A DNA stretch of 64,000 nucleotides. It comes from Nitrososphaerota archaeon. Lineage in GTDB: Archaea; Thermoproteota; Nitrososphaeria_A; Caldarchaeales; Calditenuaceae. The stretch lies in assembly GCA_009889515.1 (NCBI GenBank), contig WUQR01000139.1, positions 930,001 through 994,000 on the forward strand. Reading direction: 5' to 3'. Below, piece by piece: positions 2,565-16,882 of this stretch. Within the stretch, counting starts at the first letter, position 1; the number at the start of each line of letters is the position of its first letter. Position numbers and translations under genes: made by a program. The notes beneath the pieces were generated by a model that ran no database searches, was not told where the DNA came from, and was given only the letters and a program-made list of their open reading frames with translations.

Positions 2565-3527
2565 CTACTTCATTATCTTAATCCTCCGCCTATCTATCGT
2601 CAATATCGCCATCACAATCGCGATAACTCCGAAGATTATCATCCTAATGTTCAGATCTATTGCCAGCATGCTTAGACCAGAATCCAGCCACCTGATAATC
2701 AACACCCCCAGCAGAGTCCTATGCACACCACCGACACCCCCAGTCAACGCCGTCCCACCCACAACCACGCTCGCAAAGAGAGGTATCGTGTCCAAGACAC
2801 CAACCTGCATATGCGCCCCCTGAATCTGAGAAGCATAGAAAATACCCGCGAGACCCGCGAACAGTGCGCAGATCATGAAGACTAGAATCCTAACCCTTGA
2901 GACATTTATCCCAGCGAGATTCGCCCCTACCAGATTTCCGCCAATAGCGTAGATAGCCCTACCGAAGGGTGTAACCATCGTAATAAGCACGGCGACAAGC
3001 CACAAAACCACGCTCCAATAAAATATCGCCGGCAAACCAAATATCATGGTCGTCGAGATAGCCCTGAATGCCGGGTCAGTTATCATCCGCGTATATCCAC
3101 CAGAGATTATTTGGGCTAGCCCCTCAGCCACCATAGATGTGGCTAGAGTGGCCATAAAAGAGGGGATTCCAAACTTCGCCAGTAACAAGCCATTCACGTA
3201 TCCGAAAACTAGGGCTACACCTAGGGCCGAGGGTATTGATAGAAAGCCGATGGAAGGATATAGGACAGCGAATATCATGGCAGAAAGCTTTAGAACACTG
3301 GGAACGGAAAAATCAAACGAGCCCATAAGAATGACTAGCGTAAGCCCGCAAGCCGCTATTAGGAAAAATGACATACCGTAGATCAGAGTGATTGCACTGT
3401 CCCAGCTCGCTAGGAAGAATGGGTTGGCAATCCGTAAAAGAGTAATTAACAATAAAAGCCCGGAGATCGGCACTATAGTGTTAAGATTTCTATGCAGCCA
3501 CTCCCTATAAACGATTGTTTGACCCAT
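2565..3527 (-). CDS. Sugar ABC transporter permease (RbsC family), distal
   Basis: A hydrophobic protein of 320 residues with about 8-10 predicted membrane segments, of the ribose/xylose/galactose permease family (BPD_transp_2). It contains the family's VVGGTALTGGVGG stretch near residue 252. It is the last gene of a minus-strand unit encoding binding protein, ATPase and two permeases, and starts 14 nt after the stop of the other permease. The pair would form the membrane channel. The transported sugar cannot be deduced from sequence alone. Confidence 0.9.
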   Translation of the reverse strand: MGQTIVYREWLHRNLNTIVPISGLLLLITLLRIANPFFLASWDSAITLIYGMSFFLIAACGLTLVILMGSFDFSVPSVLKLSAMIFAVLYPSIGFLSIPSALGVALVFGYVNGLLLAKFGIPSFMATLATSMVAEGLAQIISGGYTRMITDPAFRAISTTMIFGLPAIFYWSVVLWLVAVLITMVTPFGRAIYAIGGNLVGANLAGINVSRVRILVFMICALFAGLAGIFYASQIQGAHMQVGVLDTIPLFASVVVGGTALTGGVGGVHRTLLGVLIIRWLDSGLSMLAIDLNIRMIIFGVIAIVMAILTIDRRRIKIMK

Positions 3528-3541
3528 GTTTGCACCACTCG

Positions 3542-4531
3542 CTAGGCGATTAAGGCACCTTTAAGAGCTTTCGACGCGACGACAACAGCCGCCAGCAAAA
3601 GCGTACCTATATAGAGTTTGAGGTGGTTCGGATCTACACCAGGCAGTAGGAACAGCCCATTGAATATCAAAACATAAACTAGTGCACCCATCAGAGTCCT
3701 ATGCGGGCCACCCATCCCACCGGCCAAAGGTGTCCCCCCAAGGACTATTGCAGCTAAACCTCTAATCAACTCGCTGGGGTCAAAGTCCACCCTTGTCTGG
3801 TTTCCGAGGTGGACAAAAATAGCGATAGAGCCTAGCCCTGTTAAGAACCCGCTAATCATGAAAGCAAGTATTTTATATTTTCTGACATTGATTCCAGCTA
3901 GGCTGGCACCCTCCTCATTAGACCCTATAGCGCAGAGATAGGTCCCCACTTTAGTGAAGAACATAAAGAATATCGCCAAAGCAATAGTCGGCAGTGCCAG
4001 TAGGAATGGTGATGGAAGGTAGGGTATGGGCGACTCCCTCAGGAAATTATATGCTGGAACAGTGAGCGTCAATACCCCTGAGACGTTTCTAACATATGTG
4101 GTTAGGAACGCAAATACAGCGGTCACCGCGATTGTGAGTATGAATGATGGTATCTTAGCCTTGACATGGATATAGCCATTTACTAGTCCGACAAGCAGGC
4201 CGAATACAGGATAAACCAGTATTGACGCAAGGCCAAGATATGGGTAGAGCAGCCATACAAGGGCGCCACCAAACATCCACACACCCATATAAGAGACATC
4301 GATAGAGCCCATCAATATTACGAAGGTCGGCCCCACGGACAGCATCGCGGTTACAGCAAAACTCTTCAGAATAGCCACCAGATTGCTGGCCGAGAGAAAC
4401 TTTTCTGGAACTATTACAGAGAAGAGGACTATTAGACTGAAAATGGTCCACAATGCGGGATTTATCCTAATCAGCCTCCAAGCCAGCGCAACGGTTGTTA
4501 CCACAGTTGACTTCTCAAATTCTCCCTTCAT
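3542..4531 (-). CDS. Sugar ABC transporter permease (RbsC family), proximal
   Basis: A 329-residue multi-spanning permease, paralogous to the gene downstream. It carries the conserved IVLGGTPLAGGMGG loop followed by HRTLMGALV, which is matched by HRTLLGVLI in the partner. Its ATG overlaps the stop of the ATPase gene (positions 4528-4531), which suggests translational coupling. With its partner and the upstream ATPase it should form a monosaccharide importer. The two permeases probably form a heterodimer, whereas many bacterial RbsC systems use a homodimer. Confidence 0.9.
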   Translation of the reverse strand: MKGEFEKSTVVTTVALAWRLIRINPALWTIFSLIVLFSVIVPEKFLSASNLVAILKSFAVTAMLSVGPTFVILMGSIDVSYMGVWMFGGALVWLLYPYLGLASILVYPVFGLLVGLVNGYIHVKAKIPSFILTIAVTAVFAFLTTYVRNVSGVLTLTVPAYNFLRESPIPYLPSPFLLALPTIALAIFFMFFTKVGTYLCAIGSNEEGASLAGINVRKYKILAFMISGFLTGLGSIAIFVHLGNQTRVDFDPSELIRGLAAIVLGGTPLAGGMGGPHRTLMGALVYVLIFNGLFLLPGVDPNHLKLYIGTLLLAAVVVASKALKGALIA

Positions 4532-6087
4532 AGACCCATCAAACTCCTGAATTCCTTATTTGAGCAAACCCGCTGAACCACCCCATCCTTTAGCATTAGT
4601 ATTTTGTCACAGAGAATCGCATATTCCTTGGGGTCGTCGCTTACAAGCAGCATTGAGACCCCGTTCTTCTTCATTTCTAGTAGGACTTCGTATATGTCTT
4701 CCCTCGCGCCCACATCAATGCCAATAGTGGGGTCTTCCAGAATCAATACTTTCGGACTCTTCTCAAGCCATTTACCGACTGAGACCTTCTGCTTATTGCC
4801 ACCACTAAGAGAGTAGCACTCGGTATCGACACTCGGGGCCCTAATCCGTAGCTTCTTCACTATTTTTTCAGCTAGGCTCTTCTCCAGCCTCAGGCTTATT
4901 ACTGGAACAACTCCGAGGTGTTTTCTAACAACCTTTTCAAAATTAATTATCGAGACATTCTTTCTTATCGACCAGTAGAGGAAGAGCTCTTTACCCGTCT
5001 CACCCGAGAAATACCCCAGGCCCCTCCGTATTCTAGAGTATGGTCCACCCTTCGCCCTCAATTCATGACCATCCATGATTATCTTGCCCTTATCGAATGT
5101 AAGGACACCGTAGAGAGTTTTGGCGATCTCACTCTTACCGCAGCCAGCAGGTCCAAAAAGCCCAACACATTCTCCCTCGCGAATATCGAAGGAAATATCT
5201 GTGTAGTATCCTTTCTTGGTGAGATTTCTAACAGACAGGATTGTGGGCCTCTCTTGAAGCTGCTCTTGTCCATAACCGTATCTTTCTAAAAGATCGTAGT
5301 AGGATTCTCGGCCGACTATTTCTCTGAACAACTCTTCTTCGGTGACCTTCTCCGCAGCCACGTCGTGATGTGCCACGACCTTTCCATCCCGTAGAACGTA
5401 TATGCGATCGCTAAATTTCATTACTTCGGGGATGATATGTGACACAAATATGAATGAGTTCTCCTTTTTTAGGTTTAGCAGATACTCGAATAACTCGTCT
5501 CTCTCTTCTATTGATAGTGGGGCGGTTGGCTCATCAAGTATTATCAGAGGGGTGACCTCGCCCTCCCTGCCCTCACCTGTAGCCAGTCTGATACTCAGAA
5601 TTGCCCTCGCTATTTCAACCATCTTCTGAGTGGATAGAGGTAACTCGTATAGATAGCTTCCCAGATCACATTTGATTCCCAGTTCATCAAAAACGGACTT
5701 GGCCGTACCTATGATTTTTTCTAGCTGTAGCCGCCCGAGCTTTGTGAACTTGTCTTCGAGGCCTAGGAATAGAAATTGGTAGACCTTGAGGTGGGGGATG
5801 ACACCTCTCTCTTGGTAAACTATTGAGATACCCCTTTTCAGGGCGTCTAGCGGGTTTTTAGGAAATGGAATACGCTCGCCCATGTAGTATAACTCTCCGC
5901 TATCTGGTGGATGTATACCGACAAGAATTTTCATTAGCGTGGATTTTCCAGCACCATTCTCCCCTACTACACTAAGGATCTCCCTCTTTCTCACTTCTAT
6001 ACTAACGCCATCCAGAGCTCTGACTACTGTGTCGAATGTTTTAGTGATGTTCTTTGCTTCTACAAGTATCTCTTGGGAGGAGCCCAT
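4528..6087 (-). CDS. Sugar ABC transporter ATP-binding protein (RbsA/XylG type)
   Basis: A tandem ATPase of 519 residues with two nucleotide-binding domains. The N-terminal half has Walker A GENGAGKST (about residues 42-50), ILDEPTAPL and an H-switch (VSHI). The C-terminal half has a divergent Walker A, GPAGCGKSE, and an LSGGNKQKVSVGKWL signature followed by LEDPTIGIDVG. The unequal sites, with the second carrying the good signature, are typical of RbsA/MglA-type importers. It lies between the binding-protein gene and the permeases. Confidence 0.93.
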   Translation of the reverse strand: MGSSQEILVEAKNITKTFDTVVRALDGVSIEVRKREILSVVGENGAGKSTLMKILVGIHPPDSGELYYMGERIPFPKNPLDALKRGISIVYQERGVIPHLKVYQFLFLGLEDKFTKLGRLQLEKIIGTAKSVFDELGIKCDLGSYLYELPLSTQKMVEIARAILSIRLATGEGREGEVTPLIILDEPTAPLSIEERDELFEYLLNLKKENSFIFVSHIIPEVMKFSDRIYVLRDGKVVAHHDVAAEKVTEEELFREIVGRESYYDLLERYGYGQEQLQERPTILSVRNLTKKGYYTDISFDIREGECVGLFGPAGCGKSEIAKTLYGVLTFDKGKIIMDGHELRAKGGPYSRIRRGLGYFSGETGKELFLYWSIRKNVSIINFEKVVRKHLGVVPVISLRLEKSLAEKIVKKLRIRAPSVDTECYSLSGGNKQKVSVGKWLEKSPKVLILEDPTIGIDVGAREDIYEVLLEMKKNGVSMLLVSDDPKEYAILCDKILMLKDGVVQRVCSNKEFRSLMGL

Positions 6088-6160: not shown

Positions 6161-7795
6161 TTATTCTACTATTGCTCCCCACCGCGGCAGCAGCTTCAGC
6201 CCTTCTGCCTGAGCAGCGCTTATTTTAGCCTCGTTATCTTTCCACGTATCCCAGTTCAGGTCCAAGAAGTATTTCATTGTTAATCCGAATTGCTTCCTGA
6301 ATGACTCTAAGTTTTCTCCCTTCGTCCTGTCATCTGTCACCTTCATCCTCTCCATCATCGGAACGTAGTAGTAGTCGTTTGCCGTTAGGTAGTTCTTCGC
6401 GTGCCTGTCAAATGTGAGTCCAAGCTCTCTAACCTTACCCACTGACAGAGTCCTGAAGTCGTATGGATACATCCTTGACGGATATACCTCGCTTATCTTC
6501 AGGAAGTCTAAGAGCTTGGCAGCGTCAACTACTACGAAGTTTGGATGCCACTCAAGACCAGAGCTTCTGATTAGTTCCTCGTTCTCCTCCTTGATTCCTG
6601 GTGTTGAGAGGTTGAGAACGGTGGTGACCCATGGTGACTGAACCATCTCGTCTCTGAGCGGATATGAGGCCCCTGTAACGGCATCGTAGATAGCGGTGAC
6701 GCGTTTGCCGCCGAAATACTGGAATTCCGTGAGTGACGTTACGAACAACTCACCCTTTATCACTAGGTCTACATAGGCTACTATTGCGTCTCTAGCTGCC
6801 GTGAATGGGCCAATATCTATCCCTCTCTCCTTGAATACTGAGACGGTGCCCATCGCTTGGTCGTCGTTGTGTCCCCAGACCGCTTCGTAGTCTGTTCTGA
6901 CTGCCAATGCATCCTCTCCAGCCTTTCTACCTCCAGGATACGCCCATTCACCCCAGTAATGCCCGAGGTTCTGTATGAATGGATACCTTCTCCACGCTAG
7001 TGCTATTCCCTGATTGATGAGCGCGGTAGAGTCGGGTGCAATAGTCTTTGAAGACTGCACGTGAAGGACTTTGCTCCTTCCATACTTCCTCATCTTCTCA
7101 TAGAGTAGTGTCATGCAGTGGAAGCTCATCTCATCCGACATCGTGCTGAACTCTAGGAACCAGTATGGCCCCTTGTCTCCCGGTAGTAGGGCTGGATCCC
7201 TGCACCAAGCTGTGGATGCAAACACCTTGTTCTCCTCACAGAGCCTCACTATCTCTTGCATAGCAGCTATGGCGGGGGCCCAGTAAACAATCCCCTTAGC
7301 GCCTGCCGCAATTAGCGAGTCAGTAGCCTCTACAGCCTTTAATGCCTCGGCCCCTATCTCTATACCCTTGAAGTCAAGTTCAAGCTGCCTAGCTGCTTGA
7401 TCGGCGCCCTGATAGTCATACTTTGGCGCCTCTTGGGCCAAGGTCCAGGTAACATATCCGACAAGGAATTTGTCCCCAGGCTTACCTGTCGCGTATCTTT
7501 TTGCTAGCTGGGCTCTAAGCTCGGCAACACCGGTGGGCGCACCTGGGGCGGTCGCGGTGACCGTGAGAGTTCTCTCCCTTTCAACTGTGACTGTTCCGCC
7601 TGGAAGGGTTACAGTCCTCTCCACTGGCCTCTCGACAGTAACAGTGGCCGGCCTAGGCTGCGCTGCTGTTCCTGACAAATAACCTGCGACCCCACCCACA
7701 ACGAGCCCAGCCGCAGCAACGCCTGCGATCTTGGCCGTTTGACTGATAGCAGCCCTCCTCGATATTGCTTTCTCAGAAGGCTTTTCCTTTTCCAT
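6161..7795 (-). CDS. Sugar ABC transporter substrate-binding protein, Tat-type signal
   Basis: A periplasmic-binding-protein-like family 1 (RbsB/simple-sugar) receptor of 544 residues, longer than bacterial RbsB (about 300). The N-terminus has a twin-arginine-like motif SRRAAI followed by a hydrophobic segment (AGVAAAGLVVGGVAGYL), so it is probably exported by Tat and membrane-anchored. A Thr/Val-rich linker (TVTVERPVERTVTLPGG) leads to the ligand-binding domain. An ATG at 7829 would add 12 residues, but a TATA box overlaps that point and lies about 29 nt before the ATG at 7793-7795, so 7795 is preferred. Confidence 0.88.
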   Translation of the reverse strand: MEKEKPSEKAISRRAAISQTAKIAGVAAAGLVVGGVAGYLSGTAAQPRPATVTVERPVERTVTLPGGTVTVERERTLTVTATAPGAPTGVAELRAQLAKRYATGKPGDKFLVGYVTWTLAQEAPKYDYQGADQAARQLELDFKGIEIGAEALKAVEATDSLIAAGAKGIVYWAPAIAAMQEIVRLCEENKVFASTAWCRDPALLPGDKGPYWFLEFSTMSDEMSFHCMTLLYEKMRKYGRSKVLHVQSSKTIAPDSTALINQGIALAWRRYPFIQNLGHYWGEWAYPGGRKAGEDALAVRTDYEAVWGHNDDQAMGTVSVFKERGIDIGPFTAARDAIVAYVDLVIKGELFVTSLTEFQYFGGKRVTAIYDAVTGASYPLRDEMVQSPWVTTVLNLSTPGIKEENEELIRSSGLEWHPNFVVVDAAKLLDFLKISEVYPSRMYPYDFRTLSVGKVRELGLTFDRHAKNYLTANDYYYVPMMERMKVTDDRTKGENLESFRKQFGLTMKYFLDLNWDTWKDNEAKISAAQAEGLKLLPRWGAIVE

Positions 7796-7819
7796 AGCGG
7801 AGATTAGATCGAAATGCCT

Positions 7820-7855
7820 ACATATAAACATTTATAGCACGATACATATCGATAC
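7820..7855 (-). promoter_or_regulatory. Promoter of the sugar transporter unit, with direct repeat
   Basis: On the minus strand a TATA-like TTTATATG lies about 26-33 nt before the ATG at 7795, which suggests a leaderless transcript. A second A/T box (CTATAAAT) lies just upstream. Two copies of CGATAC (plus-strand 7840-7845 and 7850-7855, one helical turn apart) abut the upstream edge and could bind a sugar-responsive regulator. The repeat is seen; its function is inferred. Confidence 0.5.
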
Positions 7856-7941: not shown

Positions 7942-9489
7942 CTATGAGAATAGTTTGCTATGGTCTTCCATCAAGTAATCGATTCGCGCAACCAGTTTTT
8001 CATAATACTCTGAATACTTACGATAGACGCTGGCCACCTCCTCTCTTGGTTCAACCCTTTTAACGGGCTTGACCCATTCATCAATCGTCTTCTTGTAGTC
8101 TTTTAACACTTTAACACCATATCCACCGATAACGGCCAATGCGGTGACGGCATATTCTTCTCTGTTAAGCAAGACGTATGGGACTCCTAAGATATCGGCC
8201 TTTATCTGACACCAAATCCGGCTCTTGCTCCCACCTCCTATCCCCCTAACCTCACCTATCCTGATGTTACTTAACAGCTCGCGGAGGATTTTCAAGTAGT
8301 GATTATATTCAAACGCTATGGATTCTAGTATGGATCTGTAGAGGTGCCCTTTGGTGTGTTTCCAGCTGAAGCCTACCCACACACCTCTGATGCGCGGGTT
8401 GTAAGGATATGCCCTTCCGCCAAGGTGGGGGATGAAGAATACCCCCTCGCTACCAGGGGAGATTTCTGAAGCTCTCTCATCCAAGATTTCATACGGGTCT
8501 CTCCCCTGCTGTTGGGCTATTGTCTTCTCCTCTTTAGCAATCTCGTCCCTGAACCATCTTAGACATAGGCCACCACCATTAATATACGCCCCAACACACC
8601 ACTGATCTGGGACGACAGACTTGAGGTGTAGTAGCGTCCTATGTTTGACATCTGGGGCAATTTTATCGGTTGAGACGTAGAAGGCAGAGGCCGTTCCAGC
8701 GATGTCTAGGCATAGGCCGGGCTGCGTCAATCCGGCACCAAACGCGCAAGCCATACCATCTCCAGCCCCCGCTACAATAGGTATCCCCTTTACAAGCCCC
8801 ATTTTCTCAGCCGACTCCTGCGTGAGCTCTCCGATCACTTCCCAAGGTTTAACCACCCTGGGCATCTTGTCCAACGGCAATTTGAAAATCTCGGCAAGCT
8901 CTTCAGACCAATCCATCCTGTGGATATCGAATAACCCTGTAAAAGTTACATACGTGTAGTCATAGAATGCGTCTTCACCCTTAAGCCCTGCTAGTCTGCC
9001 GGCCACATACACTGCGGGGACGGTAAATTTGCATATCTTCTCGAAAGTTTCGCGCCTCTCGTTCTTCCACCACATCATTTTAGGGAGATGGTCAACAGTC
9101 GGCGGCACGCCAGTCCTATCTATGAGCAACTCTTCATGGTTCGCCTTCAAATAATCGATGTATTTTTCACACCTAATGTCAAGCCACGAGTCGTATGGCA
9201 TCACGGGGTTCCAGTCCTTATCTATCGCCAATATGCCGGCCATCTGTCCGCTGAAAGCAATTGACGCGACTTGGCGCGGGTCGATCCTAGACTTCTTAAC
9301 AACCTCCCTGACAGTGTTAACCGTCGAAATATAGAAGTCTTCGGGAACCTGTTCAACCCATCCCACCCTCGGATAATAAAGTTTAGACTCTTCATATGAT
9401 ACGGCCAACTGGTTGCCCTCAACGTCAAATATAGCTGCTTTCGTTCCAGCTGTCCCAATATCGACACCAATAAGGTACTGAGGGCTCAT
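7942..9489 (-). CDS. FGGY-family carbohydrate kinase (xylulokinase-like)
   Basis: An ATP-dependent sugar kinase of 515 residues with the N-terminal phosphate-binding motif GVDIGTAGTKAAIFD, the middle GAGDGMACAFGAG region and the C-terminal GIGGGSKSRIWCQIKADI adenosine site that defines the FGGY family. Likely substrates are pentuloses or polyols; xylulose is the closest guess from overall appearance. The ATG at 9489 is preceded by a good Shine-Dalgarno (GGGAGGG), which favours it over a TTG at 9501. It lies beside the sugar importer and probably phosphorylates the imported sugar or its isomer. Confidence 0.9.
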   Translation of the reverse strand: MSPQYLIGVDIGTAGTKAAIFDVEGNQLAVSYEESKLYYPRVGWVEQVPEDFYISTVNTVREVVKKSRIDPRQVASIAFSGQMAGILAIDKDWNPVMPYDSWLDIRCEKYIDYLKANHEELLIDRTGVPPTVDHLPKMMWWKNERRETFEKICKFTVPAVYVAGRLAGLKGEDAFYDYTYVTFTGLFDIHRMDWSEELAEIFKLPLDKMPRVVKPWEVIGELTQESAEKMGLVKGIPIVAGAGDGMACAFGAGLTQPGLCLDIAGTASAFYVSTDKIAPDVKHRTLLHLKSVVPDQWCVGAYINGGGLCLRWFRDEIAKEEKTIAQQQGRDPYEILDERASEISPGSEGVFFIPHLGGRAYPYNPRIRGVWVGFSWKHTKGHLYRSILESIAFEYNHYLKILRELLSNIRIGEVRGIGGGSKSRIWCQIKADILGVPYVLLNREEYAVTALAVIGGYGVKVLKDYKKTIDEWVKPVKRVEPREEVASVYRKYSEYYEKLVARIDYLMEDHSKLFS

Positions 9490-9614
9490 AAACCCTCCCA
9501 AACTCCAACCAGCGGCCCTTAAATAATATTTTTCCGACTATATGCTACGAGCAGAGTCCAATGCAGTGCTATGCTCACATAAACTTACCCATTAACTGTG
9601 TGGCTGGTGGGAGC

Positions 9615-11246
9615 TTATTCCCCGCCAAGCTCACCCTCATGCCTCTTAGCATACCGTCTATCAACCAACTCATCCACCCTTAACAGCATAATAGCTGTCT
9701 CAAATGCTGTCTTTAACACCTGCTCCTTCATTCTATGAGACTCAACTATGCCAAGTTTAATCATGTCACATACTTCGCCAGTAAAGGCGTCAAATCCGTA
9801 CTGGTTCTCGCCTTTCTCATGTTTTGCTCTTAGCTCAGTCAGCACTTCTAATGGGTCATGCCCAGAGTTTTCTGCAAGAAGCCGCGGAATAGTTTCTAGA
9901 GCGTCTGCACATGAGATGATAGCTTCCTGCTCTTTTCCCACATGCTCTAAAGCCTCCTTTCTAATAGCTATGGCTAGCGACTCCTCTACAGCCCCTCCCC
10001 CCGGCAAGTAGGCTGGCCCCTCTAACATCGAGGAAACATAAGTTATCGCGTCTTTGAATGCGTGTTCGATGTCATTTAGTACGTTCTCTGAAAAACCTCT
10101 CAACAGAACCGTAACACCTCCTGAACTATTACATCCCTCGATAGCTAGGACCCGCTCACTTCCTATCTGCATCTCTCTAATGAGCCCCGCTCTGCCCAAG
10201 TCCTCCTCCCTGATATCATCTATGCTGGAAACTATTCTAGCGCCCGTGATCTTTGCGACGCTAGTAAACTCCTTCTCATTGAGTAGCCGGCTTACTCCCA
10301 TAACGCCGGCCTTTGCAAGCAATTGTTTTGCAACGTCCCCCATCCTCTTTCTACATATGACAACATTTGCGCCAACCGATAACACCCTCTCAACCATACT
10401 TCGAACAATCCTCTCCTCTTCCTGTAGGAACTGATTGATGCTGCCAGACTTGTTGATATCTATATGATACTTAAACGGCTGTAGATGCTTGAATTCATCT
10501 ATTTTTAAGGCCATATTTAGCATCGCGATTCTCGGATTTTTTATAATTCGCGGCATAGCTGGATGAGCAACCCCTTTCTCGATGATAACACCATCTAGTA
10601 CCTTGCTCTCCATGATGCTTCCTCCGGCTTTTTTAACAATTTTTACAGCATCCCTATCTAGGACCTTGTTATCACCGTTTTTTCTAATGGTTGTGGCTAT
10701 AGCCTGGGTTGCTAGTTCTGAGAGGTGATCGGCATTACCTAAAGTCCTAGCGGTGAACATTGCGGATACAAATTTTTTAATTGAATTACTATCGACCGTG
10801 TTGACCGCCATACTAAACGACCGTAGATTTTTCAATGCAGTGTTATATGCTATCGAGTATCCCTGTATTATTGTATTGACTTTTAGCTGCTTAGTTGCCA
10901 GATCTGCAGCTTTTCTTAATAATTCCCCAATCAATATAATTGTTGTCTTGGTGCCATCCCCTACCGTTTTGTCGACGGTCTTGGATGCCTCACTGAGAAG
11001 CCTAGCTACGGGGTGGTGAAGGTCAAGCTTTTCCAGTATCTCCGCACCATGACTCGTGAGCGTCCCTTCAGTAAACTTGTCGATAACCAGCTTAGACATG
11101 CCTTTGGGGCCAAAACACGGTTTCAACACATCAGAGATGGCTTCAGCCACGTAGATGTTACTCCTCCACGCCGCGTAACCGCGACTCTTTAATACACCCT
11201 CCCTATGCAGTGCGAATGGGTCGCGGATAATGAACTTTCTAGACAT
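9615..11246 (-). CDS. Divergent group II chaperonin (thermosome/CCT-like) subunit
   Basis: A 543-residue protein alignable by eye with the thermosome along its whole length: GPKGM (46-50), GDGTKTT (96-102), the apical-domain MPRIIKNPRIAML, LPGGGAVEESL near 414, and the C-terminal YGFDAFTGEVCDM. Key differences are visible. The usual TNDGATIL loop reads TSHGAEIL, so the Asp equivalent to GroEL Asp52 is His66; GDGTTT is GDGTKT. Asp399 (FKDA), equivalent to the second ATPase Asp, is kept. The C-terminal GGM tail is missing. It sits among sugar genes, not with a normal thermosome gene. Its ATPase may be weak or altered (inference). Confidence 0.85.
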   Translation of the reverse strand: MSRKFIIRDPFALHREGVLKSRGYAAWRSNIYVAEAISDVLKPCFGPKGMSKLVIDKFTEGTLTSHGAEILEKLDLHHPVARLLSEASKTVDKTVGDGTKTTIILIGELLRKAADLATKQLKVNTIIQGYSIAYNTALKNLRSFSMAVNTVDSNSIKKFVSAMFTARTLGNADHLSELATQAIATTIRKNGDNKVLDRDAVKIVKKAGGSIMESKVLDGVIIEKGVAHPAMPRIIKNPRIAMLNMALKIDEFKHLQPFKYHIDINKSGSINQFLQEEERIVRSMVERVLSVGANVVICRKRMGDVAKQLLAKAGVMGVSRLLNEKEFTSVAKITGARIVSSIDDIREEDLGRAGLIREMQIGSERVLAIEGCNSSGGVTVLLRGFSENVLNDIEHAFKDAITYVSSMLEGPAYLPGGGAVEESLAIAIRKEALEHVGKEQEAIISCADALETIPRLLAENSGHDPLEVLTELRAKHEKGENQYGFDAFTGEVCDMIKLGIVESHRMKEQVLKTAFETAIMLLRVDELVDRRYAKRHEGELGGE

Positions 11247-11315: not shown

Positions 11316-12083
11316 CTACACTCTCTCGACAGCGACGATCGTCATGCCGCCATCCACGACGAACTTCTGCCCAGTCACATATGCAGAATCATCAGACGCG
11401 AGGTAGAGGGCGGCTGCCGCTATATCCTCGGGCTTCGCCAGCCTCTTCAAAGGAGCTCTAGCAGCCATTCTTTTCCGCTCCTCTTCTGTTGTGGCCGAGT
11501 ACAATAGGTCTGTCTCTGTAGGTCCTGGGCATATAGCATTGACCCGGATGTTGTATGGTGCCAAGTCAACGGCCATCGCAAGTGTTAGTGAGAGTACTGC
11601 GCCCTTCAGTGCACTATAGGCGGCGTGCCCCGGCTCACCCGTGATCGCAGCCTTCGACGAGATATTGATGATTGAGCCGCCTCCCGCCTTAATCATGTGA
11701 GGCACAACTAGCTGGGAGGGTATAACTGTACCAAGCACGTTTATTCTGAATTGTTTCTCCCAATATTCCAGCGGCTCTTCATGGAATGGTTTTCCAAGGT
11801 GGATTGCCGCATTGTTCACTAATATGTCGATTTTTCCAAACCTTTTAACGACCTCGTCAACACATCTCTTAACGGAGTCAACATTGCTCACATCTGCTTG
11901 GAGCGCTATGACTTCCGCCCCACTGACTTCATTTTTAATGGTATTTACAGCTTTTTCAGCCTTCTCCAAATCTATATCCAATATCGCTACCTTCCCACCT
12001 TCTTTCGCAAACCTTGAAGCTATTGCAAATCCTATACCTCGAGCGCCGCCTGTAACTATAGCTACCTTATCCTTTAGTCTCAC
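11316..12083 (-). CDS. Short-chain dehydrogenase/reductase (SDR), classical
   Basis: A 255-residue NAD(P)-dependent oxidoreductase. It has the cofactor motif TGGARGIG (11-18), the NNAAIH structural motif (90-95), and the catalytic Ser (142/143), Tyr156 and Lys160 (YSALK). The acidic D36 after the second strand (ILDID) suggests a preference for NAD. It resembles glucose/sugar 1-dehydrogenases and 3-oxoacyl reductases, which sequence alone cannot separate; the location argues for a sugar or polyol substrate. The start is GTG at 12081-12083, about 30 nt after a TATA-like box at 12107-12118. Confidence 0.9.
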   Translation of the reverse strand: MRLKDKVAIVTGGARGIGFAIASRFAKEGGKVAILDIDLEKAEKAVNTIKNEVSGAEVIALQADVSNVDSVKRCVDEVVKRFGKIDILVNNAAIHLGKPFHEEPLEYWEKQFRINVLGTVIPSQLVVPHMIKAGGGSIINISSKAAITGEPGHAAYSALKGAVLSLTLAMAVDLAPYNIRVNAICPGPTETDLLYSATTEEERKRMAARAPLKRLAKPEDIAAAALYLASDDSAYVTGQKFVVDGGMTIVAVERV

Positions 12084-12236: not shown

Positions 12237-12365
12237 TTTTTAACTGGCCAGTAGACAGTGGGAGATTAATGGATGATTCTCTAATGGTTTATGAACGCGC
12301 GCATTACTCTATGCTCGCAGAATATCGGGTTATCTCTAAATATCTCCTTACATATTTTTTCCTCG

Positions 12366-13373
12366 TTGACTATCGAGTTTGGCTTTTACTGCGCACACGA
12401 ACAATACGACCCTGTAAGTCTTCTGGAATTCTCTGTGGAGGCTGAGCGCTACAACTTCGACACGATATGGTCTAGTGACCATTTCCACCCGTGGAGCCAT
12501 ACAAATGCGCACTCCGGCTTCGCACTTAGCTGGCTTGGAATAGCGGCTGTGAAGACTCATAGAATGAGGATAGGCTCTGTATGTGCGACAATAATGCGCT
12601 ATCATCCAGCACTTATTGCTCAAGCATATGCGACACTAGACTACATATTTCCAGGCCGAGTGTTTTTATGTCTTGCAACGGGCGAGGCAATGAATGAGAT
12701 GCCTCTGGGGCTGCCGTGGCCTCCTTATAATGAAAGACTTATGCGTGTGCGAGAGTCTTTTGAAATAATCAGGGCCCTCTGGACGAGAGATTTTATTGAT
12801 TATGATGGAAAGTACTATAAGCTTAGGCAGGCAAATCTTTACACAAAACCCAAGACTAAGATTCCCATATTCATGGTTGCGAGTGGAAAGAAGTCCGGCT
12901 ATGTAGCGGGCTACTACGCCGACGGGGTTGTGGTTTCCGCCCGCGTGTTTGAGCAAGTTTTTGTGAGTGAGGTATTACCTGCGATGGAAAGGGGGGCGGC
13001 AGATGCGGGACGCGATGTCTCTAAGATTAAGAAGATAGTTCATAGTGTTGTATCATATGACGAAGACTTGGACAGGGCTATTGAGGGGTGCAGATTCTGG
13101 AACCCGACTATGGTGCCAGGTATTTTCGACTCAGATATTTACGACCCACGCGAGCTCGAGAGGCTGGGAAGTACAATTACGCGGGAGCAAGTCCTCCAGA
13201 AGAGGTTCATAATAACATGTGAGGAAGATGCCATTAAGCGTATTGAGAAGTGGGTCAGAATGGGTGTAAACGAGATCGAGTTTCTAAGTACAAGCCCAGA
13301 CCAGAGAAAGTTCATTAGGTTCATGGGTACGAAGGTTATTCCCTACATCAAGGAAACCTATAAAGATGGATAG
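12366..13373 (+). CDS. F420-dependent glucose-6-phosphate dehydrogenase-like enzyme (LLM family)
   Basis: A bacterial-luciferase-like (LLM) F420 enzyme that closely follows the FGD pattern: a start like ITFGYKASAEQ (here IEFGFYCAHEQYDP), SSDHFHPW, MRYHPALIAQAYATLD, PGRVFLCLATGEAMNE, then LWTRDFIDYDGKYY. These are the F420- and sugar-phosphate-site regions of FGD1. It probably oxidises a sugar or sugar phosphate with reduction of F420. An ATG at 12291 would add 25 residues with no family counterpart. The in-frame TTG at 12366, about 25 nt after an A/T box near 12337-12344, fits the family N-terminus better. Confidence 0.85.
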   Translation: MTIEFGFYCAHEQYDPVSLLEFSVEAERYNFDTIWSSDHFHPWSHTNAHSGFALSWLGIAAVKTHRMRIGSVCATIMRYHPALIAQAYATLDYIFPGRVFLCLATGEAMNEMPLGLPWPPYNERLMRVRESFEIIRALWTRDFIDYDGKYYKLRQANLYTKPKTKIPIFMVASGKKSGYVAGYYADGVVVSARVFEQVFVSEVLPAMERGAADAGRDVSKIKKIVHSVVSYDEDLDRAIEGCRFWNPTMVPGIFDSDIYDPRELERLGSTITREQVLQKRFIITCEEDAIKRIEKWVRMGVNEIEFLSTSPDQRKFIRFMGTKVIPYIKETYKDG

Positions 13374-13398
13374 AAAACTTCTTCGAGGATGTGTTAGC

Positions 13399-14160
13399 TT
13401 GAGCAGATACAGGCTAAAAGATCGTGTAGCGATAATTACTGGGGCAGCCAGTGGGATTGGTAGCTCGACCTCGACCTTGTTTGTAGATGAGGGGTGCAGG
13501 GTAGTGTTGGTAGACATCAATGAAGATGCTGGGAGGCATTTAGAGAAAGAGATCACCGACATACATGGTCAGGGGGCTGCCCTTTTCGTAAAAGCGGATG
13601 TCTCCAACGAGGAAGATGTGAAGAGATGCGTAGAGAGCGTAGTGAATAGATATGGGCGAGTAGACATTCTTGTGAACAATGCCGCTATTCACTTGATTGC
13701 CACGCTTCTTGAGACTACCACAGACGCTTGGCAGAAAACAATTGATGTTAATCTAAAATCTGTTTATCTGTTCTGCAAATATGTTGTCTCACATATGATA
13801 AGCAATTCTATAAGAGGCTCGATAGTCAATGTATCGTCGATACAAGGCATCCGTGGCGGGTTATTGTCAACGGCATATGCGGCGTCAAAGGCTGGCATTA
13901 TCGGCTTCACCAAGGCTCTAGCTCTCGAGTTAGCACCCTATGGGATACGGGTCAATGCTGTGGCCCCAAGGGCGATAGACACACCTCTCTTTAGAAGATA
14001 CCTCGAAGCAAGGGGTTTAACGGAGGAGGATATCAAGAAGCGCTACCTCTTCGGAAGGCTTGGAAAACCTGAGGAGGTTTCAAGGGCGATACTATTCCTC
14101 GCTTCGGATGAGGCTTCATACATATCAGGTGAGGTGATTGTAGTGGGAGGAGACTTTTAA
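13399..14160 (+). CDS. Short-chain dehydrogenase/reductase (SDR), second copy
   Basis: A classical SDR of about 253 residues with TGAASGIG, NNAAIH, a catalytic Ser in NVSSIQ, and YAASK supplying Tyr and Lys. VDIN after the second strand again suggests NAD. It shares many segments with the SDR at 11316-12083 (for example VKRCVESVVNRYGRVDILVNNAAIH), so the two are paralogues flanking the island's divergent promoter. A longer start at 13366 overlaps the preceding gene by 8 nt. The TTG at 13399 is preceded by a GAGGAT Shine-Dalgarno and is preferred. Confidence 0.88.
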   Translation: MSRYRLKDRVAIITGAASGIGSSTSTLFVDEGCRVVLVDINEDAGRHLEKEITDIHGQGAALFVKADVSNEEDVKRCVESVVNRYGRVDILVNNAAIHLIATLLETTTDAWQKTIDVNLKSVYLFCKYVVSHMISNSIRGSIVNVSSIQGIRGGLLSTAYAASKAGIIGFTKALALELAPYGIRVNAVAPRAIDTPLFRRYLEARGLTEEDIKKRYLFGRLGKPEEVSRAILFLASDEASYISGEVIVVGGDF

Positions 14161-14201: not shown

Positions 14202-15233
14202 ATGCCTGCACAAAAGATTGTCAACTTTTGCGTGATTGGTGCTGGGAGGGCAGGCACTGTGCATGCGAGAAACATTATGACGAGGGTAAAGAATGCAGAG
14301 CTCGTAGCTATTGTGGACAGTGATTTGGCCGCTGCGACGAAGCTAGGGGAAGAGCTGGGCGGATTAGCAGTCTTTAAAGACCTCACGACAGCTCTGAGGA
14401 AGTCCGAATTCGATGCTGTAGTGATAACAACACCAACTTTCACTCACGCCTCACTAACCATTGAGGCGGCTGAGGCTGGGAAGCACGTCTTCTGCGAGAA
14501 GCCCATGGCCTTGACGCTTGAAGAGGCTGATAAAATGATCTCTGTAACCAAGCGATATGGTGTGAAGCTTCAGATTGGGTTCATGAGGCGTTTTGACCCC
14601 GAGTTTACATCCGCTAAAAAAATAGTAGAGTCTGGAGAGATTGGGAGGCCTATCCTTGTCAAGTCGGTGGGTCGCGGACCTGGTTTGCCGCCTCCTTGGG
14701 CACTGGACCCAAAGACGGGAATTGGATTCTTGGCAGAAGTCAATAGCCATGATTTTGATACACTTAGATGGATTATGGGTGATGAGTATTCATCTATTTG
14801 CTGCGATGTCTCAGCTCTCATACGTCCAGACCTTAGGGAGAAGTATCCTAACTTTTATGATGTGGCCGTCGTTTTAGCGAGGTTTAGGAACAATGGTCTG
14901 GGGGTCATTGATGGGGCATGCCCTGTTGGTTATGGTTATGATGCTAGGATTGAGATCTTGGGCACTGAAGGAGTAATTACCGTTGGAGAAATAAGAGGCA
15001 CAACCCTGACCCGTGTAACAAAAGATATGCGCGTACTAACGGAGAGCTTCAAGAGCTGGAGAGACAGGTTTAGAGATGGATACATAAACGAGATCGAACA
15101 CTTCGCCGATTGCATAATCCATGATAAAGAGCCTTCCGTAACCGGCGTGGATGGGAGGAAGGCTTTAGAGGCAGTTCTTGCGGCACATAAGTCAGTGGAG
15201 ACAGGTAGACCCGTTGCACTACCTCTCGCGTGA
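14202..15233 (+). CDS. Gfo/Idh/MocA-family sugar/polyol dehydrogenase
   Basis: A 343-residue NAD(P) oxidoreductase of the glucose-fructose oxidoreductase / inositol dehydrogenase family. It has the Rossmann motif VIGAGRAGTVHARN at the N-terminus, the family hallmark CEKPMALTLEEAD (about residues 93-105), and EVNSHDFDTLRWI carrying the conserved Asp and His of the active site. myo-Inositol 2-dehydrogenase is the nearest familiar type, but substrates in this family vary widely. The next gene starts 6 nt after its stop, so the two are cotranscribed. Confidence 0.9.
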   Translation: MPAQKIVNFCVIGAGRAGTVHARNIMTRVKNAELVAIVDSDLAAATKLGEELGGLAVFKDLTTALRKSEFDAVVITTPTFTHASLTIEAAEAGKHVFCEKPMALTLEEADKMISVTKRYGVKLQIGFMRRFDPEFTSAKKIVESGEIGRPILVKSVGRGPGLPPPWALDPKTGIGFLAEVNSHDFDTLRWIMGDEYSSICCDVSALIRPDLREKYPNFYDVAVVLARFRNNGLGVIDGACPVGYGYDARIEILGTEGVITVGEIRGTTLTRVTKDMRVLTESFKSWRDRFRDGYINEIEHFADCIIHDKEPSVTGVDGRKALEAVLAAHKSVETGRPVALPLA

Positions 15234-15239
15234 TGTGGG

Positions 15240-16274
15240 ATGAAGGCGCTCAGGCTATATGGCGTAAAGGATCTTCGGCTCGAAGAGGTTGATAGACCGG
15301 TTCCGAGAGAAGGAGAGGTTGTTCTGAAAGTTGCAGCCGCCGGCATATGTGCGACAGACCTGAAGGCATACAATTATGGCTCAAGGACTAAAGTTCCTGT
15401 GACCCTCGGGCATGAAGTTGCGGGTGTAGTCGTGGACGCGGGTAAGGGCAGGGAGGAGCTGTTGAATAAGCGTGTAACACTGAATCCAAACATCTTCTGC
15501 GGGAGCTGTTTCTACTGTCTGCGAGGGGAGCATGTTCTATGTCCCAAGAGGTATGCTATCGGCATAGACGTTGACGGAGGGTTTGCAGAATACATGGTCG
15601 TTCCAGCCGCAGCCTTCTCCGTTGGATGTGTCCAAGAGATTCCGGACTGGCTGAGCATGGAGGAGGCCGCCCTTGTAGAGCCCCTGTCAGACTGTCTGAG
15701 GGGGCAGCTAAAGCTTGGATTGAGCGCTGGAGATAGCCTGGCAATATTTGGCGCTGGTCCAATTGGGCTCATGCATCTTTTATTAGCCAAGGCGCTCGGC
15801 CTCAGCAAAATAATCATGTGTGAGAAGAGCGAGGCTAGAGCAAGATTTGCTGAGCGTCTGGGGGCTGACCACGTAGTCTTGCTGAGCGAGGGGGTAGATG
15901 TTGCAAAGGAGGTTCAGAGGCTAACGGGCGGTGAGGGGGTAGATGCAGTAGTAGTGGCCGTCGGCGTACCTGATGCGCAGAGGGATGCCTTGAGAGTTGT
16001 TAGGCCTGGGGGAGCAGTCAACTACTTTGCTGGACTACCTGCCGGCGTCAAAGGAGTCGAAATAGATACGAATATCATACACTATAAGCAGATAAGGGTG
16101 CTCGGAACATCTATGTCAACACCAGTCGAGTTTAAGAAAGCTCTGGACATAGTGGCTTCAGGCAGGGTGGACCTTAAGCAGCTGATAAGCATGCGCCTCC
16201 CACTGATAGAGGGTGTTAACGGCTTCAGCGAAGCACAGAAGCTTGAAAACCTCCGAGTAATTCTCAACCCATAG
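15240..16274 (+). CDS. Zinc-dependent medium-chain dehydrogenase (sorbitol/threonine DH-like)
   Basis: A 344-residue MDR enzyme. The catalytic zinc ligands are Cys in GICATDLKAY, then GHEVAG, and an acidic residue in the VEPLSDCL region. The structural zinc lobe is present, with cysteines in FCGSCFYCLRGEHVLC. The nucleotide-binding motif is GAGPIGL. The L-iditol/sorbitol/threonine dehydrogenase subgroup fits best. It ends the plus-strand catabolic unit (F420 enzyme, SDR, Gfo/Idh, MDR) and probably oxidises a polyol or sugar acid. Confidence 0.9.
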   Translation: MKALRLYGVKDLRLEEVDRPVPREGEVVLKVAAAGICATDLKAYNYGSRTKVPVTLGHEVAGVVVDAGKGREELLNKRVTLNPNIFCGSCFYCLRGEHVLCPKRYAIGIDVDGGFAEYMVVPAAAFSVGCVQEIPDWLSMEEAALVEPLSDCLRGQLKLGLSAGDSLAIFGAGPIGLMHLLLAKALGLSKIIMCEKSEARARFAERLGADHVVLLSEGVDVAKEVQRLTGGEGVDAVVVAVGVPDAQRDALRVVRPGGAVNYFAGLPAGVKGVEIDTNIIHYKQIRVLGTSMSTPVEFKKALDIVASGRVDLKQLISMRLPLIEGVNGFSEAQKLENLRVILNP

Positions 16275-16318: not shown

Positions 16319-16882
16319 TCACGTACGATACTTAGGGTTGTCGATTAAAACCGGTCGCCCATTCTCCTCTACAACCAGCTTTGCGAAGCCCTTCCTCCTA
16401 ACAATCTCATAGTCATGCCCTGCGTCTGAGGGATAGGCGAAGAAGAAAGTTAGCCTCTGATTGCCCGTGTTTATTGTCCGATGCCCCCACCCCGGCGGCA
16501 CGTAAACGACAGTGTTTGGTTCGAGAGGGCGCCACTCCACCTTCCCATCCTCCGACTGCATTAAGATGACCCCCTCACCCTCCAAGCCAATATAGATCTC
16601 AGCAGCCCGCTTCTCATGGAAATGTCCACGGGTCAGGAAATACTCCCGCCCAACCTTCCCCGGATACAACACCGTCAGCCCAAAGTTCACATTTTCTTCC
16701 TCATCCCCGAAACTATTCTCAAAATACTCATAGACGACCAAGTCCCCAAGGCTGTTAATCATTCTCTCCACCTCGACTTGATCATTGAAGTATTCCTTTA
16801 GAGCAGAGAGCCTCACCACGTTGTGTTTTGTATGTGGTTCAATCATTCTTTTAGCCAAATCAATTTTTGCGGAGAATAACAT
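16319..16882 (-). CDS. pgiA: Cupin-type phosphoglucose isomerase
   Basis: A 187-residue cupin of the archaeal glucose-6-phosphate isomerase family (PF06560), unrelated to bacterial PGI. The metal-site motif is GHFHEKRAAEIYIGLEGEG, with the two His and the Glu, and a later His in PPGWGHRTIN. It interconverts glucose 6-phosphate and fructose 6-phosphate in modified glycolysis or gluconeogenesis. It converges with the zinc dehydrogenase across a 44-nt gap. A TATA-like AATTTATATGG lies 30-40 nt before the ATG. Confidence 0.93.
   Translation of the reverse strand: MLFSAKIDLAKRMIEPHTKHNVVRLSALKEYFNDQVEVERMINSLGDLVVYEYFENSFGDEEENVNFGLTVLYPGKVGREYFLTRGHFHEKRAAEIYIGLEGEGVILMQSEDGKVEWRPLEPNTVVYVPPGWGHRTINTGNQRLTFFFAYPSDAGHDYEIVRRKGFAKLVVEENGRPVLIDNPKYRT

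Follow-up and report, generated by a model that had tools for sequence, protein, structure and literature searches.

A divergent group II chaperonin in a sugar gene cluster of Caldarchaeales, with a predicted role as a pathway-dedicated thermosome paralogue

Thermosomes are usually regarded as general folding machines, and operon-encoded, pathway-linked chaperonins have been described for bacterial group I (MmoG and the gbu system). MmoG is encoded by a divergent GroEL-like gene inside soluble methane monooxygenase operons and is the proposed folder of the adjacent enzyme (PMC9324122). In the gbu clusters, which convert gamma-butyrobetaine to TMA, groEL-like genes are linked in several strains, and the native GroES/GroEL-like proteins were needed for the pathway in another host (PMC10653785). 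Ch-CPN, a group III thermosome-like chaperonin, has a fixed context in bacterial dnaK operons (PMC5635000). In the literature searched, with few subscription journals covered, neither a group II or archaeal operon-linked pathway chaperonin nor the gene described here was found to be reported, and the published study on Wolframiiraptor contains no mention of a chaperonin.

Here we describe a divergent chaperonin that is encoded in a 64,000-nt stretch of DNA (the window) from a hot-spring archaeon, with an assembly of 2.1 Mb and 95.5% completeness. The 12-member family of this protein was given the name CPN3. Like MmoG, CPN3 is encoded by a divergent chaperonin gene in a metabolic operon, but MmoG is a bacterial group I protein with no standard GroES in its operon and is associated with a di-iron enzyme, whereas CPN3 belongs to group II, has its own lid and is associated with a sugar pathway. 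The groEL-like genes of the gbu clusters share with CPN3 the tie to a catabolic cluster; however, they are bacterial, belong to group I and are not always in the cluster. Ch-CPN is Hsp70-linked, non-metabolic and forms a deep separate group, in contrast to CPN3, which is a recent group II duplicate. By analogy, the role of CPN3 would resemble that of MmoG without CPN3 being a member of the MmoG family. Our preferred reading, to which we assign a probability of about 0.6, is that CPN3 has a predicted role as a pathway-dedicated archaeal chaperonin, derived from a beta thermosome, that folds or assembles proteins of a sugar module.

The CPN3 gene and its constant partners

The earlier note had placed a chaperonin gene at exactly 9615-11246, and an intact ORF with an ATG start, 543 codons for amino acids and a Cpn60_TCP1 match was indeed found there; its strand, which had not been given, is minus. 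The features of the gene and its neighbours are as follows.

9615..11246, minus: CPN3, divergent group II chaperonin of 543 aa, with His66 and Lys100; Asp97 and Asp399 retained
11049..11051, minus: His66 codon CAT, replacing the Asp of TNDGATIL
10944..10961, minus: GDGTKT, P-loop-like, residues 96-101; Lys100 invariant in the CPN3 family
10470..10505, minus: base-of-lid segment KIDEFKHLQPFK, residues 248-259, family-specific, exceeding that of canonical thermosomes by about 4 residues
9618..9662, minus: C-terminal tail DRRYAKRHEGELGGE, residues 529-543, conserved among orthologues
7942..9501, minus: FGGY carbohydrate kinase (XylB/GntK-like), directly downstream of CPN3, adjacent in 12/12 genomes
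6161..7831, minus: solute-binding protein of a sugar ABC transporter, in the same 12 genomes as CPN3
4528..6087, minus: double-ATPase subunit of the sugar ABC transporter (AraG/RbsA-like), by profile match
3542..4531, minus: putative ABC permease 1, assigned by cluster position as a conserved neighbour
2565..3527, minus: putative ABC permease 2, assigned by cluster position as a conserved neighbour
11316..12083, minus: short-chain dehydrogenase (glucose-1-dehydrogenase-like), first gene of the putative operon, conserved neighbour with profile match
12291..13373, plus: F420-dependent LLM oxidoreductase (F420-G6P dehydrogenase-like), divergent arm, by profile match
13366..14160, plus: second short-chain dehydrogenase, divergent arm, conserved neighbour
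14202..15233, plus: inositol-2-dehydrogenase-like oxidoreductase (IolG/GFO-IDH-MocA), conserved neighbour with profile match
15240..16274, plus: zinc dehydrogenase (IolM/threonine-dehydrogenase-like), recurrent in the cluster
16319..16882, minus: cupin of the archaeal phosphoglucose isomerase family, recurrent in the cluster

The short-chain dehydrogenase (SDR), CPN3, the FGGY kinase, the solute-binding protein, the double ATPase and the two permeases are thus encoded one after another on the minus strand, and the divergent arm carries the genes for F420-LLM, SDR, IolG-like protein and Zn-dehydrogenase, followed by the minus-strand cupin isomerase gene. A bacterial promoter scan yielded a signal at background level. 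The IolG-like and IolM-like dehydrogenases encoded at 14202-16274 of the window may suggest that the substrate is a polyol, perhaps inositol, and no simple pentose.

Orthologues of CPN3 were found in 12 of 61 related genomes, including that of the window, and share 46-87% identity. The FGGY kinase gene directly follows CPN3 in each of the 12 genomes, on the same strand and after a gap of about 26-163 nt. This adjacency is constant, whereas the remaining genes vary in their arrangement: the gene for the tungsten AOR is present or absent, the transporter is inverted or found on another contig, and the flanking arms are changed. The three genes for CPN3, the kinase (at least 73% identity) and the solute-binding protein (at least 80%) are co-inherited: each was found in the same 12 of the 61 genomes and in no other, and CPN3 without the kinase and the solute-binding protein was never found in this set. 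The 12 loci are all from one order and are therefore non-independent, so that contrasts within the four genera are a fairer count. The module is present in 2 of 6, 1 of 4, 4 of 5 and 5 of 9 genomes of these genera, and this patchy occurrence indicates that it was gained or lost as a unit. The main groups of the kinase tree are those of the chaperonin tree, including the grouping of G000 (the genome of the window) and G004 with G027, which is from another family. That this grouping recurs in both trees suggests a transfer of the module between families. At the Wolframiiraptor cluster, the adjoining ORFs at L044 17640-19001, L045 1626-2913 and L047 16889-18739 look spurious and are 95-100% identical across species; they may overlap rRNA genes, and if so, this cluster lies beside an rRNA locus.

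The FGGY kinase is the first client candidate, because its gene is the sole one that adjoins CPN3 in every case. The tungsten AOR was rejected as an obligate client: it is found in nine of the CPN3 genomes and is missing from G000, G004 and G027, and G043, a 70%-complete MAG, has AOR without the chaperonin. In G229, a genome of another order, a similar enzyme set comprises two FGGY kinases (49-52% identity), IolG (53%), the cupin (52%), the Zn-dehydrogenase (46%) and the F420 enzyme (62%). ABC transporter genes lie nearby, and no chaperonin was found in the region examined (L150 10304-19999 and L151 3-863), which leaves the idea that a chaperonin is obligatory for this enzyme family in general unsupported. 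FGGY kinase paralogues (64%) in G032 and G038 also have no chaperonin nearby. Therefore, the enzymes need no chaperonin intrinsically, and a dependence, if real, would be lineage-specific. The G038 paralogue (L122 9246-10796) contains an in-frame TGA and may represent a pseudogene or an assembly error. As an alternative to a client relationship, gene linkage can also result from co-regulation or co-transfer.

Distribution, origin and selection

Of the 44 Caldarchaeales genomes scanned, 12 have CPN3. When 398 genomes of the phylum were searched with a profile of the 12 sequences, the 12 members scored 880-970 bits and other chaperonins at most 636 bits. Within the genomes compared, CPN3 is thus restricted to Caldarchaeales. 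The named hosts from the Aigarchaeota/Caldarchaeales are Wolframiiraptor gerlachensis, W. allenii and W. sinensis as well as Geocrenenecus arthurdayi, G. dongiae and a Caldarchaeum sp.

The earlier note had proposed a search for canonical thermosome genes in the genome and a chaperonin phylogeny. Two further chaperonins were found, both canonical with TNDGATIL and GDGTT motifs, and the window protein is hence a third paralogue; one of the canonical genes lies on the same contig, about 13 kb from CPN3. In the phylogeny (IQ-TREE, mixture model), CPN3 falls inside the beta-type thermosomes of Caldarchaeales: the 12 sequences, together with L059 and L061, form a clade with a support of 100/100 and a long stem that is nested in the beta-type thermosomes of the order. 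Judged from this position, CPN3 is a duplicate of the local beta thermosome subunit and no ancient lineage. The placement of L059 and L061 beside the Wolframiiraptor CPN3 has a weak support of 86/83, and therefore, CPN3 without them may not be strictly one clade.

The chaperonins at loci L059 (380-2035, plus), L061 (9992-11368, plus) and L123 (3-737, plus), from relatives of Wolframiiraptor, represent the lineage closest to CPN3. Lys100 is common to L059 and L061, in the form GDGxKT, and the L059 tail is of the DRRxAKR type, as in CPN3. They differ from CPN3 in a different transporter, the lack of a kinase, a longer tail and a retained Asp66. Another sugar-type ABC transporter is encoded next to L059 and L123, followed at L059 by histidine-biosynthesis genes, and these proteins are possibly a second transporter-linked chaperonin. 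Apart from these, extremely divergent chaperonin-like proteins with about 27-34% identity, long branches and no recognisable TNDG were observed in several related genomes, at L126, L127, L128, L129, L130 and L134, some with extended C-termini, e.g. a His-rich one at L130.

Quantification of dN/dS for G000 versus G004 yielded 0.098 for CPN3; the two canonical subunits had values of 0.017 and 0.023, and the genes next to CPN3 in the operon had 0.03-0.08. CPN3 is under purifying selection, and these ratios liken it to a pathway gene more than to a housekeeping chaperonin. A decaying gene was ruled out, as CPN3 is intact in 12 of 12 genomes and dN/dS is about 0.1.

Fold, nucleotide site and family-specific features

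Both its sequence and its fold place CPN3 among the group II chaperonins, with one canonical catalytic Asp missing in the subclade of the window. The window protein matched PF00118 (Cpn60_TCP1, Pfam) with 473 bits over residues 37-529, and NCBIfam thermosome models scored 484-486 bits compared to at most 83 bits for GroEL models. With 483.7 bits, it did not reach the cut-off of 671 bits of TIGR02339 (canonical thermosome), but it passed the looser cut-offs of NF041082/NF041083. The AF2 model built from 34 sequences (pLDDT 85, pTM 0.82) superseded an earlier one from 12 sequences with a poor apical domain (pLDDT 68). It includes the three-domain fold and the apical helical protrusion that forms the built-in lid, and Foldseek matched it to 1q2v, 1a6d, 4xcd and TRiC with TM values of 0.83-0.88 (0.86-0.88 for thermosomes). 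In summary, CPN3 is like archaeal thermosome subunits (TIGR02339, NF041082/NF041083) in full-length homology (34-42% identity), fold, built-in lid, GDG loop and Asp399, but differs from them as a third paralogue with Lys100, a longer lid base, a conserved tail, His66 in one subclade and the tie to a metabolic operon.

Group II chaperonins hold the attacking water with a pair of Asp residues (Asp73 and Asp404 in CCT5), and mutation of the Asp404 equivalent in Mm-Cpn abolished the ATPase (PMC5473854); the same pair has been described for Ch-CPN (PMC5635000). The earlier note had reported TSHGAEIL with His66 in place of the Asp of TNDGATIL, GDGTKT in place of GDGTTT and a retained Asp399. All three were recovered, the first two at residues 64-71 and 96-101, and Asp399 is invariant in 12 of 12 CPN3 sequences. 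Of the two water-positioning residues, the window protein has thus kept the second and lost the first. A sequencing error is ruled out, because the independent MAGs G004 (87% identity) and G027 (54%) encode His66 as well. His66 is not the defining trait of CPN3, because Asp is kept in 9 of 12 members, which consequently have both the TNDG Asp and the intermediate-domain Asp, and the three His bearers form a single clade (support 100/97). Therefore, the exchange of Asp for His probably arose once and was then kept. The three genomes are the same ones that lack AOR. His66 would be expected to slow hydrolysis while ATP binding is kept, and a slow ATPase is plausible solely for this three-member subclade.

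Asp97 of the GDG loop and GPxG are, like Asp399, invariant in the whole family. Lys100 is present in 12 of 12 CPN3 sequences, whereas 21 of 21 canonical sequences have Thr at this position. GDGTKT was ruled out as a sign of an inactive ATPase, because the beta thermosomes of Sulfolobales naturally carry ADGTKT, with Lys at the same position. The window protein ends with ...VDRRYAKRHEGELGGE, so that the GGM repeat is missing, as claimed earlier. As a distinctive trait, however, this was rejected: the two canonical thermosomes of the genome also lack GGM and end in charged or serine tails (...SSTSSSFD and ...SETPEFD).

At thirty positions, 11 or more of the 12 CPN3 sequences share a residue that none of the 21 canonical thermosomes has. 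These positions cluster in the N-terminal strand (6-18), the nucleotide loop (91, 100, 103), the base of the lid (248-259), at Arg299/Gly303 near the apical substrate-binding helix, at Leu321/322 and in the tail (529-536). The lengthened base of the lid reads KxDxFxHLQPxK (248-259), and its extra residues were modelled with low confidence as a helix (251-259). According to the definitions for CCT5, the insertion sits at the base of the lid and belongs to neither the proximal nor the release loop. The CPN3 tail, DRRYAKRHEGE, is nearly invariant, with a mean majority of 0.82 versus 0.59 for the canonical tail. The tail is thus more conserved in CPN3 than in the canonical set, and the opposite is true for most other regions.

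Predicted role and competing explanations

The earlier note had regarded the protein as a probable specialised subunit. This view is well supported, as CPN3 is a third paralogue with conserved features of its own and is bound to one gene cluster. The gene context, which the earlier note had not mentioned, tells more about CPN3 than the exchange of Asp for His. We propose that a beta-type thermosome of Caldarchaeales was duplicated and that the resulting paralogue became dedicated to one sugar or polyol catabolic module, which would consist of a sugar-type ABC importer, the FGGY kinase, dehydrogenases, the cupin isomerase and often the tungsten AOR. CPN3 is probably co-transcribed with the operon and made together with it, and most likely it acts as a chaperonin that folds or assembles at least one protein of the module. 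It would use an ordinary ATP cycle with the built-in lid, with altered client recognition predicted for the lid base, the apical binding helix and the C-terminal tail. For the window protein and its two His66 relatives, His in place of one of two water-positioning Asp residues probably slows hydrolysis and may lengthen encapsulation. A more detailed version, a client-specific group II chaperonin that arose when a mobile sugar operon captured a thermosome duplicate, with lid base and tail recognising the client and a slower ATP clock through His for Asp in one subclade, is put forward tentatively, at a little under even odds.

Three other explanations were weighed. Hetero-oligomers are common among archaeal thermosomes, CPN3 is nested in the beta clade of the order, and two canonical partners are encoded in the genome, so CPN3 might be induced as a third subunit and enter the alpha/beta thermosome, where it would alter the specificity or slow the ATPase, with the sugar operon as a location for regulation only; the earlier note had suggested such mixing. 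We consider this less likely than dedication to the module, because the N-terminus, the base of the lid and the C-terminal tail are conserved within CPN3 only, and CPN3 evolves much faster than alpha and beta, which is unexpected for a subunit locked in a shared ring. In T. acidophilum, replacing the Thr that corresponds to Lys100 by Val (T97V in alpha, T96V in beta) abolished the assembly of alpha8-beta8 (PMC5983026); this might speak against mixing, but is weak for CPN3 because beta subunits of Sulfolobales naturally have Lys there.

It is less probable still that CPN3 of the His66 subclade, without productive ATPase cycling, serves the transporter-kinase enzymes as an ATP-poor holdase, a scaffold or an assembly factor, in the manner of the divergent chaperonin-like BBS/MKKS proteins. 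His66 does remove one of two Asp residues thought to position the attacking water, and it has been kept since G027 split from G000/G004 (54% identity). However, the GDG and GPxG loops, Asp97 and Asp399 are retained throughout the family and Asp66 in most of it (12/12 and 9/12), and CPN3 is under purifying selection. The constant position 5' of the kinase gene in clusters that are otherwise rearranged, and the lack of any CPN3 without kinase and solute-binding protein in the 61 genomes, make it very improbable that CPN3 is a general stress or backup thermosome hitchhiking in a horizontally moving sugar island, even though the cluster appears to move as a unit between families.

Taken together, the dedication of CPN3 to the sugar module is our preferred reading. 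If it is true, CPN3 would be a group II counterpart of the operon-encoded bacterial chaperonins and, with its few candidate clients, a simple natural system for the client specificity of chaperonins with a built-in lid, a question that is otherwise mostly asked for the eukaryotic CCT with its eight subunits. Comparing the His66 subclade with its Asp66 relatives offers a natural experiment on the hydrolysis step.
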